From Pseudomonas sp. KBW05 (GTDB lineage Bacteria; Pseudomonadota; Gammaproteobacteria; Pseudomonadales; Pseudomonadaceae): a stretch of DNA of 64,000 nucleotides. The notes below the pieces were generated by a model. That model had not been told where the DNA came from. It worked only from the letters and a program-made list of their open reading frames with translations, and searched no databases. A program made the translations under genes and the position numbers. The DNA lies in assembly GCF_003852405.1 (NCBI RefSeq), contig NZ_QAJM01000014.1:126969-190968 (forward strand). The letters are read 5' to 3'. Shown piece by piece: positions 50,268 to 57,022 of this stretch (within the stretch, counting starts at the first letter, position 1; each line of letters opens with the position of its first letter).

Positions 50268-51839
50268 ATGAATAATAAAAACAACGATAAAAGTATTCGC
50301 CAGATAGAAACCAACGGGGTCGAACAGATCCCGGACCATGAACGTACCGCCGGCCCCAAGGATCTGTTTCGCCTGATCTTCGGCGGTGCCAATACCTTTG
50401 CCACCGCCGTGCTGGGTTCCTTTCCTGTGCTGTTCGGTTTGTCGTTCCAGGCCGGGGTCTGGGCGATTGTGCTGGGCGTGCTGGTGGGCGCGCTGATCCT
50501 CGCGCCCATGGGCCTGTTCGGGCCGATCAACGGCACCAACAACGCGGTGTCGTCCGGTGCGCACTTCGGCGTGCACGGGCGGATTGTCGGCTCGTTTCTG
50601 TCGTTGCTGACGGCGATTGCGTTCTTCTCACTGTCGGTGTGGAGTTCAGGCGATGCGCTGGTGGGCGGTGCGAAACGCCTGATCGGCCTGCCGGAAACCG
50701 ACCTGACCCTGGGCTTGGCCTATGGCGTGTTCGCGATCCTAGTGCTGACCGTGTGCATCTACGGCTTTCGCTTCATGCTGTGGGTCAACCGCATCGCGGT
50801 GTGGGCAGCAAGCCTCCTGTTTTTGCTGGGCATCTTCGCCTTTGCGCCAGCGTTCGACAGCCACTTCGCCGGCACTGTTGCCCTCGGCCAGACTGGCTTT
50901 TGGGCGGCGTTTATCGGTGCAGCACTGGTAGCCATGAGCAACCCGATTTCCTTCGGTGCGTTCCTCGGCGACTGGTCGCGCTACATCCCGCGTGAGACGC
51001 CGAAAATGCGCATCATGCTGGCCGTGGTGCTGGCGCAGATCGCTACCCTGATCCCGTTTTTGTTCGGCCTGGCCACCGCGACCATCGTGGCGATCAAGGC
51101 ACCGGACTACATTGCGGCCAACAACTACGTCGGCGGTTTGCTGGCGGTGGCGCCGAGTTGGTTCTTCCTGCCGGTGTGCCTGATCGCGGTAATCGGCGGC
51201 ATGTCCACCGGCACCACGTCGCTGTATGGCACGGGGCTGGACATGTCCAGCGTGTTCCCGCGCCTGCTGTCGCGGGTCAAGGCCACGCTGCTGATCGGGG
51301 TGATGTCGATTGCCTTCATCTTTATCGGACGTTTCGCCGCCAACCTGGTGCAGAGCGTCTCGACCTTCGCCGTGCTGATCATCACTTGCACCACGCCGTG
51401 GATGGTGATGATGATCATCGGCCTGATCGTGCGCCGCGGCTTCTACTGCCCGGATGACTTGCAGGTGTTCACCCGCGGTGAGACCGGTGGCCGCTACTGG
51501 TTCAGCCATGGCTGGAACTGGCGCGGGCTGGGCGCGTGGATACCGAGTGCGTTGGTGGGGCTGTGCTTCGTCAACTTGCCGGGGCAGTTTGTCGGGCCGC
51601 TGGGCAATTTGGCGGATGGCATTGATATCAGCTTGCCGGTGACGTTGGGGCTGGCGTCGGTGGTGTACCTGACCTTGCTGCGCGTTTTTCCTGAGCCGGA
51701 TGCGGTGTATGGCCCCGCCTTTGTGGCGAGGGAGCTTGCTCCCGCTGGGCTGCGCAGCGGCCCCAAAAAAGCCGGCTCCAGCTTCGCTGTCGAGCGGGAG
51801 CAAGCTCCCTCGCCACAACAAGCCTCTTCACCACAATAA
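50268..51839 (+). CDS. NCS1-family permease (PA1419-like) with REP-encoded C-terminus
   Basis: 523 residues, about 12 membrane helices with the NCS1 layout (GANTFATAVLGSFPVLFGLS at helix 1, SNPISFGAFLGDWSRYIP in the middle). It lies in the gbu cluster, so it probably imports a guanidino or nucleobase-like substrate. Family homology ends at about residue 482 (FPEPDAVYGP). The last ~40 residues (AFVARELAPAG...) are translated from the REP element at 51722-51817, so the tail is not ancestral. GGAG precedes the ATG by 7 bp. Confidence 0.85.
   Translation: MNNKNNDKSIRQIETNGVEQIPDHERTAGPKDLFRLIFGGANTFATAVLGSFPVLFGLSFQAGVWAIVLGVLVGALILAPMGLFGPINGTNNAVSSGAHFGVHGRIVGSFLSLLTAIAFFSLSVWSSGDALVGGAKRLIGLPETDLTLGLAYGVFAILVLTVCIYGFRFMLWVNRIAVWAASLLFLLGIFAFAPAFDSHFAGTVALGQTGFWAAFIGAALVAMSNPISFGAFLGDWSRYIPRETPKMRIMLAVVLAQIATLIPFLFGLATATIVAIKAPDYIAANNYVGGLLAVAPSWFFLPVCLIAVIGGMSTGTTSLYGTGLDMSSVFPRLLSRVKATLLIGVMSIAFIFIGRFAANLVQSVSTFAVLIITCTTPWMVMMIIGLIVRRGFYCPDDLQVFTRGETGGRYWFSHGWNWRGLGAWIPSALVGLCFVNLPGQFVGPLGNLADGIDISLPVTLGLASVVYLTLLRVFPEPDAVYGPAFVARELAPAGLRSGPKKAGSSFAVEREQAPSPQQASSPQ
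51722..51817. repeat. TGTGGCGAG-family repeat inside the NCS1 gene
   Basis: Outer arms TGTGGCGAGGGAGCTTGCTC and complement, with an inner GCTGGGCTGCGCAGCGGCCCC pairing only partly with its opposite arm. It lies wholly within the last ~40 codons of the permease gene; the stop follows at 51837. Confidence 0.88.
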
Positions 51840-51862
51840 AAAATAATCGGAGAACCGCCGTC

Positions 51863-53245
51863 ATGGCTTTGGATTTATTCGTCGTACTCATCTACGCCGC
51901 CGGCATGCTCGTGCTCGGCTATTACGGCATGCGCCGCGCCAAGACCCACGAAGATTATCTGGTGGCCGGCCGCAACCTCGGCCCGACCCTGTACATGGGC
52001 ACCATGGCCGCCACGGTGCTGGGCGGCGCTTCTACCGTCGGCACCGTGCGTCTGGGTTATGTGCATGGCATCTCGGGCTTCTGGCTGTGCGCCGCGCTGG
52101 GCGCGGGGATCATTGCGCTGAACCTGTTCCTGGCCAAGCCGCTGTTGAAGCTGAAGATCTTCACCGTCACCCAGGTCCTCGAAAAACGCTACAACCCCAT
52201 GGCGCGCCAAGCCAGCGCAGTGATCATGCTGGCCTACGCCTTGATGATCGGCGTGACCTCGATCCTCGCCATCGGCACCGTGCTGCAAGTGCTGTTTGGC
52301 CTGCCGTTCTGGATCTCGGTACTGCTCGGCGGCGGCGTGGTAGTGGTGTACTCGACCATCGGCGGCATGTGGTCGCTGACCCTCACCGACATCGTGCAAT
52401 TCGTGATCAAGACCGTCGGCCTGATGTTTATCCTGCTGCCGATCTGCCTGTACCGCGTCGGCGGCTGGGATGAGCTGGTGGCCAAGCTGCCGGCGTCGAG
52501 TTTCAGCTTCACCGCGATTGGCTGGGACACGATCATTACCTACTTCATGATCTACTTCTTCGGCATCCTGATCGGCCAGGACATCTGGCAACGGGTGTTC
52601 ACCGCCCGTGACGAAAAGGTCGCCAAGTACGCAGGCACGTTCGCCGGGTTCTACTGCATCCTCTACGGCCTGGCCTGTGCGTTGATCGGCATGGCCGCAC
52701 ACGTGCTGATCCCGGACCTGGACAACGTCAACAACGCGTTTGCCGCCATCGTCAAAGTCTCGCTGCCAGACGGCATCCGTGGCTTGGTGATTGCAGCAGC
52801 ACTCGCCGCGATGATGTCTACCGCCAGCGCCGGTTTGCTCGCGGCCTCCACCGTACTGACCGAAGACCTGCTGCCACGCCTGCGCGGCGGCAAACAGTCG
52901 AGCCTGGCGATCAACCGCTGGTTCACGATGCTGACCGGCATCGCCGTACTGGGCATCGCCCTGGTGGTGAACGACGTGATCAGCGCGCTGACCCTGGCCT
53001 ACAACCTGCTGGTGGGCGGCATGCTGATCCCGCTGATCGGCGCGATCTTCTGGAAGCGCGCGACCACCTCCGGGGCAATCACCTCGATGACGCTGGGCTT
53101 TGTCACGGCGCTGGTGTTCATGCTCAAGGATGGCTTGGATGCGAACACGCCGATCTACTACAGCCTCGCGGTTGGGTTGGTGAGTTTTGTGCTGGTGAGT
53201 GTGTTGTCGCGCAAGCCTGAGGCGGTGACGGCTCGCACGGTTTGA
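51863..53245 (+). CDS. Sodium:solute symporter (SSS family, PA1418-like)
   Basis: 460 residues with 13 predicted helices. It starts MALDLFVVLIYAAGMLVLGYYG and has the SSS signatures YLVAGRNLGPTLYMGTMAATVLGGASTVG near the N-terminus and AAALAAMMSTASAGLLAASTVLTEDL near residue 310. CGGAGAA lies 10 bp upstream. It is the last gene of the gbu unit, followed by a strong terminator. Its 3' 60 bp and terminator recur at 55583-55708 in diverged form, flanking the inserted gene. Confidence 0.9.
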   Translation: MALDLFVVLIYAAGMLVLGYYGMRRAKTHEDYLVAGRNLGPTLYMGTMAATVLGGASTVGTVRLGYVHGISGFWLCAALGAGIIALNLFLAKPLLKLKIFTVTQVLEKRYNPMARQASAVIMLAYALMIGVTSILAIGTVLQVLFGLPFWISVLLGGGVVVVYSTIGGMWSLTLTDIVQFVIKTVGLMFILLPICLYRVGGWDELVAKLPASSFSFTAIGWDTIITYFMIYFFGILIGQDIWQRVFTARDEKVAKYAGTFAGFYCILYGLACALIGMAAHVLIPDLDNVNNAFAAIVKVSLPDGIRGLVIAAALAAMMSTASAGLLAASTVLTEDLLPRLRGGKQSSLAINRWFTMLTGIAVLGIALVVNDVISALTLAYNLLVGGMLIPLIGAIFWKRATTSGAITSMTLGFVTALVFMLKDGLDANTPIYYSLAVGLVSFVLVSVLSRKPEAVTARTV

Positions 53246-53303
53246 TGCAATACAGGGTTTAGAGCGGTTTCTTCAGCGGGCACGACGTCGGATGTCGTGC
53301 CCG
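53186..53303. repeat. Direct repeat copy A (symporter 3' end and terminator)
   Basis: 118 bp covering the last 19 codons of the SSS symporter, its stop and its terminator stem. It aligns without gaps to 55583-55700 with about 16 mismatches (about 86% identity). The mismatches cluster before and just after the stop, while the segment from the GGGTTTAGAG stretch to the terminator is nearly identical. Confidence 0.85.
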
Positions 53304-53310
53304 TTTTTTT
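53277..53310 (+). terminator. Terminator of the gbu unit (copy A)
   Basis: CGGGCACGAC-GTCGGAT-GTCGTGCCCG, 10-bp perfect stem, then seven T. Confidence 0.93.
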
Positions 53311-55582
53311 GTTTCAGTTTGCCTGGATGATTTCCTGAACCAAAGAGGCCCAGACCAAGCCCTGTGTTGTGCCAGCGGCATAAGTGCCCCCAGCTACAAT
53401 TTGGTGATGGGCAGCGTGATGAACGATCGAAAGTCCGTCTGGAGTACCGGGCCTGGCACATTCGATAATTTGCAAATCGCCACTGTCTATTGCCCTTCGG
53501 TACGACGCTGGAAAGTGCCGAGAAACAGCAGCGAGACACGCAGCCAGTATCTGTTCCTTGTACTCCGGCGCCGAGTGGGGCGGAACCTGTCCCCCGGAGA
53601 CAAGAATGCAATCCCCGTCCAAGCGGCAATTCATGACGCCAACCGGCAGATCGTACTGCAGCTTGAGTCCTCGCAGTTCGGCCCCCTCATTGCCAACAGC
53701 ACGCAATCTGAAAAACCAGCCAATGATCGCGACTACTTGTGATTCCTCTATCCCCATGGCGGTAACGACGAAGTGATCTCTGCTCAGCTCCGCAATTTGA
53801 GCCGGACTCAGATGCTGGGGCAGGAACTGAACCCCTGAGTACCGCAAAAGATTCTCTATCCCTTCCTTTAAATGGATAAATTCCAAATCGTAGCCCGATA
53901 CCTCAATAGCTTGACCGATCCCAGAAACACCACAACGCGCCTGTAATTGCTGTGGGCTGATCTCTGCGATCTCACACCCTGGCTTGCCGCTCGGCCACGG
54001 CCTGTTTTCGATGTCACGTTGTTCGCGGATCGCCTCCTCTACGCCAATGGCTTCATCCACATAGGCTCGTACAATCCGTGCCCGCGCAAACTTTGCCAAG
54101 GATGGATTATCGGCCAGAAACTTTTCAAACAGCTCAATGCCTGCGCGATTGCACTCAACGGCCAAATATTGATTCCCTGCAAATAGGTAGTCGTTATGTA
54201 ACGGCTTTGCCGTCGTCTCCGTTGCAGATAGATGGCGCATGTTTACATTCTTATGACTGGCCCCATCGCTCTGCTGATTGCCTCCGTACACCGTGACCTG
54301 ATAGTTCGCCAGACGGAGCATCACCGCTTGAAGCAGACCGTTGATCCCTCGACCGACAATCGACACGCGGGGCGCATCGGTACCAGCTTGTTGAGAGGGG
54401 ATCATCAATGATTGCGCAAGTGTGCGTCGCACAAGACCGTGCAAGGCCGTCAAGCTCAGTTGAACGCAGACGGCATAGTCGAGATCGCAATGGCAGGCCT
54501 CGGAGGTTGACGCCTGGGTCGTCAGCATTGCGGGGTTGCGCCATGTGGAGACACTACAGCCGAGTGCTTGTGTGCGCATCCGAAACGCATCCAGTGTTGT
54601 AGGGCCATAGTCCAATACAACCTGGATGGATTCAGCCATCGCCAGGGCCTGCAAAGCATCATCGCTGAAGACATCCGGTTTGGCGACGCAGACCAGACGA
54701 GCTTGTTTGCACAGGCATTGAATCAGGGTTCGATCAATACGGTGAGCGGATGCATCGTTCAGGGGTAAACAGACGGCCAGTGCATAGGCCCCCTCAAGCG
54801 CCTCGCGCCAGTCCACGAAAAATGACACTCTGCTGTCGGAATCCGGCACTCGACCGTGTCGAACCAGCACCTTGACCCGAACATCGGGATCTCGATCCAG
54901 CAACAGCTTGACCAGCTCTTTACCCACAGCTCCGTATCCCAGTACACAGACATCGCGGGGGATGGAGCCATCGGCCAATGTCAGCCAGTGCGCGATGTAT
55001 GCAGCAACATGCGGCGCGTTGACCCCGGGAGTGCTGACCACTTGGATGCCGTTGGACTCGCACAGATCCAGACGAATCTTATCCAGGCTGGTACCCCTGC
55101 GAACCAGACAGAGCTTTCCAAATGGGTGAGATATACGCCATTGATCAATGACGTCTGCATCAATGGCTTGGTCGCCGACGATGATCGTCGATGGACTCAG
55201 CAGAGCGATCTGTATGAGCAGGGCTTGCTGGGTCAACGTCGGCGCAAGGAACACCAAATTGCTGGGTGCATCGGCCTTCCAGCGCCTTGATACAGGTGCG
55301 ATATGCAGAATGGTTTCGGTTGTGGCAATCAGCGACGCGGCGACTGGCGGAACGGAAGAGAGCATCATAGTTTTGCCTCCAACAATGCTGACTTACGGAT
55401 GCCTCGTGGCGAGGATTTCAATTCTGTTAGGCACTACGGAACTGAACCTACGCTCATCGCTAAAATTAAATAACTCAGCCGATTCTGATAAGCAGGTAGC
55501 CTGATTCCGACACTGGAACGGCAAAAACCAACTGGCATGCGAACGCGCCGACTGACTGGAACCTGGGATCGGAAGGATGATC
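53311..55582. other. Inserted one-gene segment between the two direct repeats
   Basis: About 2.27 kb lying between copy A and copy B of the symporter 3' end. It contains one large minus-strand gene and a 210-bp non-coding stretch at its right side. GC is visibly lower than in the flanks (about 50% in sampled stretches). No integrase, transposase, terminal inverted repeat or target-site duplication other than the 118-bp repeats was seen. The PA1414-type gene follows immediately to the right, as in the PA1414-PA1422 region of P. aeruginosa where other genes (PA1415-PA1417) occupy this place. Confidence 0.6.
53314..55368 (-). CDS. Fused D-2-hydroxyacid-dehydrogenase-like and FAD/D-amino-acid-oxidase-like protein
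   Basis: 684 residues, two redox modules. Residues ~85-260 resemble the NAD-binding half of D-2-hydroxyacid dehydrogenases (GIQVVSTPGVNAPHVAAYIA, then VLGYGAVGKELVKLL with the glycine loop 144-149). The usual catalytic Arg region reads V-A-K-P-D and the downstream Glu/His are not seen, so this half may be inactive. Residues ~334-684 are a DAO-type flavoprotein: FAD loop GRGING at 339-344, RHLSATETTAKPLHNDYLF, and the closing GGTYAAGTTQGL. GGAGG precedes the ATG. It is lower in GC than its neighbours and sits between duplicated symporter ends. Substrate unknown. Confidence 0.75.
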   Translation of the reverse strand: MMLSSVPPVAASLIATTETILHIAPVSRRWKADAPSNLVFLAPTLTQQALLIQIALLSPSTIIVGDQAIDADVIDQWRISHPFGKLCLVRRGTSLDKIRLDLCESNGIQVVSTPGVNAPHVAAYIAHWLTLADGSIPRDVCVLGYGAVGKELVKLLLDRDPDVRVKVLVRHGRVPDSDSRVSFFVDWREALEGAYALAVCLPLNDASAHRIDRTLIQCLCKQARLVCVAKPDVFSDDALQALAMAESIQVVLDYGPTTLDAFRMRTQALGCSVSTWRNPAMLTTQASTSEACHCDLDYAVCVQLSLTALHGLVRRTLAQSLMIPSQQAGTDAPRVSIVGRGINGLLQAVMLRLANYQVTVYGGNQQSDGASHKNVNMRHLSATETTAKPLHNDYLFAGNQYLAVECNRAGIELFEKFLADNPSLAKFARARIVRAYVDEAIGVEEAIREQRDIENRPWPSGKPGCEIAEISPQQLQARCGVSGIGQAIEVSGYDLEFIHLKEGIENLLRYSGVQFLPQHLSPAQIAELSRDHFVVTAMGIEESQVVAIIGWFFRLRAVGNEGAELRGLKLQYDLPVGVMNCRLDGDCILVSGGQVPPHSAPEYKEQILAACLAAVSRHFPASYRRAIDSGDLQIIECARPGTPDGLSIVHHAAHHQIVAGGTYAAGTTQGLVWASLVQEIIQAN

Positions 55583-55700
55583 TTTGTGCTGGTGAGCGTG
55601 CAGTCGCGCAAGCCACAGGCGGTGGTGGCTCGGGTGGTTTGATGTCGCGCAGGGTTTAGAGCGGTTTCTTCAGTGGGCACGACGTCGGATGTCGTGCCCG
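55583..55700. pseudogene. Direct repeat copy B: remnant of a symporter 3' end
   Basis: 118 bp about 86% identical to 53186-53303. In the matching frame it reads FVLVSVQSRKPQAVVARVV then stop, against FVLVSVLSRKPEAVTARTV in the intact symporter, so it is a diverged copy of the gene end and not a copy made recently from copy A. No symporter sequence is found further left than 55583. Either the insertion came in with its own flank, or a second symporter gene was replaced. Confidence 0.75.
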
Positions 55701-55708
55701 TTTTTTTT
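55675..55708 (+). terminator. Terminator copy B
   Basis: GGGCACGAC-GTCGGAT-GTCGTGCCC followed by eight T; same stem and loop as 53277-53310. No plus-strand gene remains in front of it. Confidence 0.9.
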
Positions 55709-55726
55709 GCCTGGCACAAAAACAAA

Positions 55727-55815
55727 TGTGGGAGCGGGCTTGCCCGCGATTGCAGAGTGTCAGCCGACGAAGATGTCGCTGGTTCACCGCTATCGCGGGC
55801 AAGCCCGCTCCCACA
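55727..55815. repeat. Inverted REP pair
   Basis: TGTGGGAGCGGGCTTGCCCGCGAT and its complement, spaced about 40 bp. The arm variant GCCCGCGAT differs from the common GCTCGCGAA type of the window. Confidence 0.9.
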
Positions 55816-55840
55816 TGTTTAATCCCGCTTTGACCTGAGA

Positions 55841-55963
55841 TTATCTGCGACGTGGCCGACGCTGCTCGTCATCGGTACGAATCGGCACCGGTTGCAATGG
55901 CGGTTCGATCAGGCCCAGTGCAACACCGAGGTCATGGAGCCAGTTTTGAATTTTCTCTTTCAT
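55841..55963 (-). CDS. PA1414-family small protein
   Basis: 40 residues starting MKEKIQNWLHDLGVALGLIE, then P-P-L-Q-P-V-P and a basic end R-R-P-R-R-R. This matches the short PA1414 family of Pseudomonas, which in P. aeruginosa is strongly induced at low oxygen and overlaps the locus of the small RNA SicX (as I recall from the literature). A helix followed by a polar, arginine-rich tail suggests membrane-surface or nucleic-acid contact; the function is not known. A GGGGGCAACC leader precedes the ATG. A good ANR-box candidate lies upstream at 56082-56095. Confidence 0.8.
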   Translation of the reverse strand: MKEKIQNWLHDLGVALGLIEPPLQPVPIRTDDEQRRPRRR

Positions 55964-56081
55964 GGTTGCCCCCTTTGAGGGTAATGCTGGCAGGCGCAAA
56001 TTCTGTCGCCGTTTCCTACAGTGATAGTAGCCCTAAGTCCTACGTATTGCATGGACGAAACCACAACGAACTATTACTGAA

Positions 56082-56095
56082 TTGATCTGAATCCT
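56082..56095 (-). promoter_or_regulatory. Candidate ANR/FNR box of the PA1414-type gene
   Basis: On the minus strand AGGAT-TCAG-ATCAA against the consensus TTGAT-N4-ATCAA: right half perfect, left half three of five. A TACTAT -10 element at 56024-56029 would put the transcription start about 71 bp from the box centre, a spacing FNR-type activators can use. It also lies close to the end of the LysR gene. Confidence 0.5.
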
Positions 56096-56105
56096 GACGG
56101 ATCGC

Positions 56106-56999
56106 TCAAGCAATCGCCCGCGCGTCTTGCAGGACTTCGGCCTTGCCCGCTTGCTGCAAGTCGATCCATGCATTGAGGTTAGCGCCGAGCATACCCTTTC
56201 GCCACATCAGCCAGGTGGTGGCAGTGGCAAAATGCCCTGTCAGCGGATGAACGGACACGCTGTCCTTGCCTGGCAGGCTGTCGAGCATGGATTCGGACAT
56301 CAGCGCCACTCCGGAACCGGCTATCACGCAGGCCAGCATGCCCTGATAGGACTCGATCTCGATCGCACGCCCCATGGCTACATGCTCGTGGGAAAACCAC
56401 GTCTCCAGCCGCGTCCGATAGGCACAACTGCGTCGGAACGTGAACACCGAACGCCCCGCGACATCCTGCGGCCCACGCACTGGCGGGTGATCGGCCTCAC
56501 AGATCAATACCAGACGCTCTTCACACAACGGCACACCGTCCAGGGTGGCGATAGTGATCGGGCCGTCCACAAATGCCGCATCCAGGCGACCGGTAATCAA
56601 CCCTTCGAGCAACTCGCCACTGGGCGCCGATTGCACCTGAAGGTTCACCATCGGGTAAGCCTTGTGATAGCCGGCCAACAGTTTTGGCAAGTGCACCGCC
56701 GCCGTGCTGTACATGCTGCCCAGCACAAAGTCGCCCGCCGGTTGCCCGCCCTGCACCGCGCCGTGGGCTTCGTCGTGCAGCGCCAGCAGGCGGCTGCTGT
56801 AGTCCAGCAAGACTTTGCCCGCCGGAGAAAGCTGCAAGCGCTGGCGTTCGCGCACGAACAGCTCGACGCCGAGCTGCTCTTCCATCTGCTTGAGCCGGGT
56901 CGACAGGTTCGATGGCACACGATGCAGGCGCTCGGCCGCACGGGTGATGGAGCCCTCTTCCGCCACGGCCTGGAAAATGCGCAATTGACTGAACTCCAT
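56106..56999 (-). CDS. LysR-family regulator
   Basis: 297 residues. DNA-binding start MEFSQLRIFQAVAEEGSITRAAERLHRVPSNLSTRLKQME, then an effector-binding domain (GDFVLGSMYSTAAVHLPKLL, RLDAAFVDGPI). It is divergent from the MFS gene at 57104 and most likely controls it. ATG 56999 has GGAG...AGGA upstream; a Met four codons earlier is an alternative. The effector is unknown. Confidence 0.9.
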   Translation of the reverse strand: MEFSQLRIFQAVAEEGSITRAAERLHRVPSNLSTRLKQMEEQLGVELFVRERQRLQLSPAGKVLLDYSSRLLALHDEAHGAVQGGQPAGDFVLGSMYSTAAVHLPKLLAGYHKAYPMVNLQVQSAPSGELLEGLITGRLDAAFVDGPITIATLDGVPLCEERLVLICEADHPPVRGPQDVAGRSVFTFRRSCAYRTRLETWFSHEHVAMGRAIEIESYQGMLACVIAGSGVALMSESMLDSLPGKDSVSVHPLTGHFATATTWLMWRKGMLGANLNAWIDLQQAGKAEVLQDARAIA

Positions 57000-57022
57000 T
57001 CCTTTCTCCAAAACTGAACAAG

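Follow-up and report, generated by a model that had tools for sequence, protein, structure and literature searches.

How did a single gene come to lie between two copies of the 3' end of a neighbouring transporter gene? We address this question for a 64,000-nucleotide stretch of DNA from Pseudomonas sp. KBW05, referred to here as the window, by comparing the locus with its counterparts in other genomes. The evidence leans, slightly, towards the following answer: the slot behind the transporter gene is an integrase-free hotspot served by ordinary recombination, in which the second copy of the gene end is a scar, left by an insertion that was one-sided, and also allows exact loss.

The slot lies between two conserved genes. 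On its left is the gene for an SSS sodium/solute symporter (51863..53245, plus strand; Pfam SSF, E=4.4e-37), and on its right a ptrR-type LysR regulator (56109..57011, minus strand; NCBIfam NF047711, 467 bits against a cut-off of 400). The native right flank (55701..55830, no strand assigned) consists of a short spacer and an inverted repeat that we take to be of the REP type and that has 84 matches in the window's own genome, both strands counted; the conserved stretch at 55841..56108 (likewise without strand) was the right anchor from which the slot was measured. The order symporter then ptrR is kept in the loci fetched, in two sets, except in L066 and L070, where the gene found in the window's slot lies elsewhere, L073 and L113, where the contig ends, and L115 and L175, which gave no ptrR match. 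DNA of the symporter 3' end had no match in 117 of 399 genomes of the genus, and part of the 282 matching genomes was fetched. To the left of the symporter, a REP-like inverted repeat (51720-51839) appears by eye to be read as coding at the end of an NCS1 permease gene, giving about 40 extra residues; in many relatives the permease match stops at residue 483-502.

The earlier note on this DNA had described the last 19 codons of the symporter, its stop and its terminator stem as occurring twice, over 118 bp without gaps and with about 16 differences, and this description holds. Copy A (53186..53303, plus strand) belongs to the intact symporter gene and comprises these codons, the stop and the intrinsic terminator; copy B (55583..55700, plus strand), a worn second symporter 3' end, aligns with A over 118 bp with 0 gaps and exactly 16 mismatches. 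Searching the window's own genome with the 118-bp query yielded two places only at E <= 0.001, the second at 2.8e-34. Both copies are predicted to fold as strong terminator hairpins (-23.8 kcal/mol, z -3.80 in A; -19.7 kcal/mol, z -2.96, and intact, in B). The peptide ends of the two copies differ as had been quoted, and the gene between them is indeed lower in GC (0.554 versus 0.622 in the symporter). The similarity extends about 50 bp further left, to about 53133 / 55532, for a total of 142 of 177 aligned columns. In this extension alone, the symporter part (53133..53185, plus strand) and the left part of B (55532..55582, plus strand) are identical at 33 of 51 bases, scoring above all 5000 shuffles. 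An interval of about 200 bp, said to separate the gene from B, is there at 55369-55582, although its last 51 bp are part of the repeat, and the claim that B keeps the reading frame applies to the last 19 codons but not to the left part, which contains a 1-base gap and an in-frame stop. Because of this gap and this stop codon, we regard B as a fragment of the symporter 3' end that has become worn. The differences between A and B are unevenly spread (left part 18/51, coding tail 10/60, spacer 5/14, terminator 1/44): the left part of B is more diverged than the 118 bp (Fisher p = 0.0029) and marginally more worn than the coding tail alone (p = 0.029). Inside copy B, a 21-codon ATG-to-stop ORF that corresponds to the symporter's last residues is predicted at 55577-55642.

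The gene between the copies, which we call FUS (53314..55368, minus strand), encodes 684 aa, with an N-terminal half that resembles D-2-hydroxyacid dehydrogenases and a DAO-like C-terminal half (Pfam 2-Hacid_dh_C, E=8.4e-9; DAO, E=1.6e-9). No relative was found among solved structures with the single sequence, and a profile of 12 FUS relatives gave three weak matches, phosphoglycerate and erythronate-4-phosphate dehydrogenases, covering the N-terminal half only. Where the solved dehydrogenases have the arginine of the 'AR' motif, which we take to be catalytic, all 12 aligned FUS proteins have a lysine (K230); across 32 FUS rows this position is lysine in 29, asparagine in G140 and glutamate in G004, and it is not covered in G067, where FUS is in pieces. 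PADLOC returned no match for FUS or for the slot amidase described below, and a search of the literature on P. fluorescens for a fusion of dehydrogenase and oxidoreductase found no paper. Between the window and strain K2I15, FUS has a dN of 0.106 and a dS of 0.66, and by such dN/dS figures this two-domain oxidoreductase family, found here only in Pseudomonas and often shortened or absent, appears to be under purifying selection where it is intact and was compared. FUS ORFs of 438-552 aa, missing parts of the C-terminal half, occur in nine distinct strains (L074, L079, L080, L082, L085, L087, L092, L101 and L106) and may represent either decay or a separate short form; together with the pieces in G067, they would suit a long-resident gene that is being reduced where it lies. 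The region upstream of FUS (55369..55531, minus strand) holds a block with two TCRGAATCGG-like words, seen by eye; by the same means the block (55440-55540) recurs upstream of FUS in other carriers, and it was not seen before FUS in P. fragi. It is a possible operator; a consensus scan for a promoter before FUS found none.

FUS was detected (E <= 1e-20) in 24 of the 399 genus genomes, the window's own included, and lies directly behind the same symporter in all 24. Among the named loci with FUS, 11 of 13 have it at the symporter site, the others being P. fragi (L066), where the ORF beside FUS is presumably purA, and P. helleri (L070). A class-wide sample of 274 genomes (E <= 1e-15) returned FUS from the window's own genome only and from 0 of 273 others. 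For 27 loci shared between the FUS and flank trees, 10 of 24 splits are common, against a mean of 0.26 and a maximum of 3 in 2000 label shuffles, and this agreement shows that FUS shares descent within clades. The FUS data reject the flank topology taken as a whole (AU p = 2.4e-5), and FUS dS to other carriers (0.66-1.59) mostly exceeds that of the flanking genes, so that some exchange of FUS is possible; taken together, these results may mean that FUS was also exchanged, that it evolves faster, or that the backbone is wrong. On a flank tree of 47 tips, partly chosen for carrying FUS, its presence requires 14 changes (shuffled mean 14.5; 467 of 1000 shuffles at or below 14), and one gain would need 15 losses; because 14 is no fewer than shuffled, the distribution does not distinguish gains from losses. 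That all 24 carriers hold FUS at this site and that 10 of 24 splits are shared makes an old resident with many losses more likely than a fresh insertion, to judge from these comparisons.

How might such a resident have arrived? In the explanation that we favour, FUS would be an old arrival in the gap between symporter and ptrR, its DNA having joined by homology inside the symporter at one end and elsewhere at the other; alternatively, a circle could have entered by one crossover. The symporter would thereby have kept a full 3' end (A), with a 5'-truncated second 3' end left on the far side of FUS, where, having no job, it would decay. Homology-facilitated illegitimate recombination would be the likeliest way in. 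Of the marks expected from it, a duplicated target is present; the non-homologous join has decayed beyond recognition. Since wear is heavier in B's left part than in the 118 bp, B appears to have been partly overwritten by A or renewed; the younger-looking right 118 bp would then date from a single overwriting or from a renewed duplication. Recombination between A and B would remove FUS exactly and give rise to empty sites. The repeat itself, the empty sites, the other cargo, the worn second ends of further carriers and the common descent of FUS inside clades are observed; one-sided entry, an overwriting of B by A and loss through A x B recombination are what we infer. At 12 loci, at most 241 bp separate the symporter stop from the right anchor; in two of these (G305 and G031) the terminator is not recognisable.

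The strongest competitor, which we nevertheless regard as rather unlikely, is recent acquisition of one gene, by which an empty ancestor resembling genome G302 would have taken FUS from a relative through homology-facilitated illegitimate recombination, B being the recipient's own symporter end and A having come with the donor DNA. On the flank tree the sister of the window is G302 (support 100; dS 0.14-0.25), which is also the nearest genome among those compared. Its site is empty, as this account would have it and as exact loss of FUS would leave it too: one symporter end and one terminator are followed directly by the same spacer and REP-like repeat as stand after B. An empty-site strain whose junction falls within the repeat, of the kind that the earlier note had proposed to look for, thus exists. 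The window's FUS, moreover, is without a close sister in our sample, which would also suit a recent arrival, yet the position that the flanks give it is not rejected (AU p = 0.327). The copies themselves speak against a recipient's B and a donor's A, as A is the more similar of the two to G302, at 164/178 against 140/179 for B. Nor is there a tract of foreign-like divergence in the flanks: compared with G302 in 150-bp steps, they range in identity from 0.85 to 0.99, lowest at 51618-51917, with no clear import boundary, though the step holding the symporter tail (53118-53267) is among the lower ones at 0.907. On a tree of symporter 3' ends, which included only three right copies of other strains, B groups marginally with A and G302, the window's own lineage. 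This grouping would be consistent with recent acquisition and goes against the earlier proposal that B is a paralogue or a relative's allele. As a foreign allele, B would be placed outside this lineage, a position weakly rejected by the AU and KH tests (p = 0.0455 and p = 0.044; SH p = 0.234). The unconstrained search for this tree had not converged, because it ended below three of four constrained trees.

Second symporter ends also occur in other strains. They count in favour of the explanation given above, and they bear on whether a duplication of the symporter, or of its 3' end, came first, with FUS then trapped between the copies and B a decayed duplicate. We think this order of events unlikely. 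At 13 of 38 loci, 12 of them with FUS, the right-junction stretch aligns with the symporter 3' end of the same locus and outscores all 60 shuffles. Counted by strain, worn second ends are present in 11 of 31 distinct FUS strains and were not detected in 20, which counts against our explanation; for this count, strains fetched twice (K2I15/G095, cyclaminis/G286 and PTA-122608/G283) were merged, carriers fetched later, in which no copy was found, were added, and L073 was left out. Among 16 loci tested later, L162 alone exceeded its 40 shuffles, with a margin of half a point, and it was not counted. The remnants vary in extent and wear (94/131 in G197, 50/55 in P. antarctica). The longest right-hand remnant, that of K2I15 (74/111), begins 205 bp before the symporter stop, and its span over more of the symporter would fit an initial duplication. 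So would strain G176 (L088), which has no FUS and in which a tandem duplication, still fresh (78/78), takes in the symporter 3' end with its terminator and some of the REP-like repeat; it implies that such copies arise without cargo. Two complete tandem symporters, named beforehand as the case that would overturn an insertion, were not found when the protein matches at 53 loci were searched for them, and this lack of a complete second symporter tells against an initial duplication. So does the uniform left junction of the carriers: in 31 of 31 FUS loci, the minus-strand ORF nearest to the symporter stop ends 27-97 bp past it.

Direct repeats of the target flank FUS, and its occupancy is scattered on the flank tree. 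Both would also suit a passive, RecA-dependent cassette, in which A x B recombination releases a 2.4-kb FUS circle that re-enters other cells at their symporter 3' ends. Against this stand the descent of FUS within clades and a search of 72,556 plasmid records in which no FUS was found, and we hold it to be very improbable. Hardly more probable is the broader proposition that the symporter 3' end is a recombinase-free landing and exit site used repeatedly by small gene cassettes, at which repeats made from the target would allow exact exit, and RecA re-entry into relatives. If true, such a site would amount to a cassette system without an enzyme of its own.

The slot is not reserved for FUS. 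Other cargo in the same place had been anticipated, and in other species the place is indeed taken by an amidase gene paired with a lipoprotein gene, by a metallo-beta-lactamase-family gene or by a small ORF. At 71 loci, with three strains present twice and the window not counted, the slot holds FUS in 34 (alone or with others), lipoprotein and amidase without FUS in 5, a metallo-beta-lactamase-family gene in 8, a lone lipoprotein fragment in 1 (G247), a small ORF in 1 and no tested gene in 22, counts that are not natural frequencies because carrying FUS was one ground for choosing loci. In Pfam the amidase matches Amidase_2 (1.8e-16) and the L165 slot gene Lactamase_B (1.9e-22); the label 'lipoprotein' was read from the N-terminus, Pfam giving no match. 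In L078, L083, L084, L086 and L161, the Amidase_2 protein lies beside a cysteine-rich lipoprotein-like protein behind the symporter, an arrangement reminiscent of an effector and immunity pair. In the window's slot FUS is the only ORF of at least 150 aa, so the slot contains no integrase gene. The lack of an integrase that the earlier note had remarked on thus holds for the window, and recombination by homology, its alternative, fits better than site-specific integration at a gene 3' end. Such integration, with the recombinase since lost, would account for the full 3' end left of the insert but is scarcely credible, given that no integrase was found among the selected slot ORFs of relatives and that the copies, unlike a short fixed core site, extend over a long stretch, show graded decay and vary in extent from strain to strain.

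If the slot is the integrase-free hotspot that we favour, then one site, empty, occupied or decaying across many species, records gene turnover as a fossil series would, and the scar left by the second symporter end could help to date events. The slot behind the symporter seems to belong to a type of variable site that is already known. Integrase-free hotspots with variable cargo between two conserved genes and rapid turnover were described in 2017 (PMC5635113). The slot resembles these in its variable cargo between conserved genes, in the lack of any integrase among the slot ORFs searched, though a REP-like repeat borders it, and in its rapid turnover; it differs in that it was compared between species, with one genome each, rather than inside a single species, and in that it carries a worn duplicated gene end. 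Such hotspots are defined by raised homologous recombination in the core genes on either side, and by its gene content the slot is a candidate for this class. For type VI secretion effector-immunity modules of Vibrio cholerae, homology-facilitated illegitimate recombination has been proposed (PMC5361080). Common to those modules and the symporter slot are one homologous anchor with one non-homologous join, and a gene added beside a conserved region with older sequence left downstream. Unlike in V. cholerae, the sequence left behind here comes from a transporter gene and includes its terminator, and we reconstruct the event from copies that have decayed.
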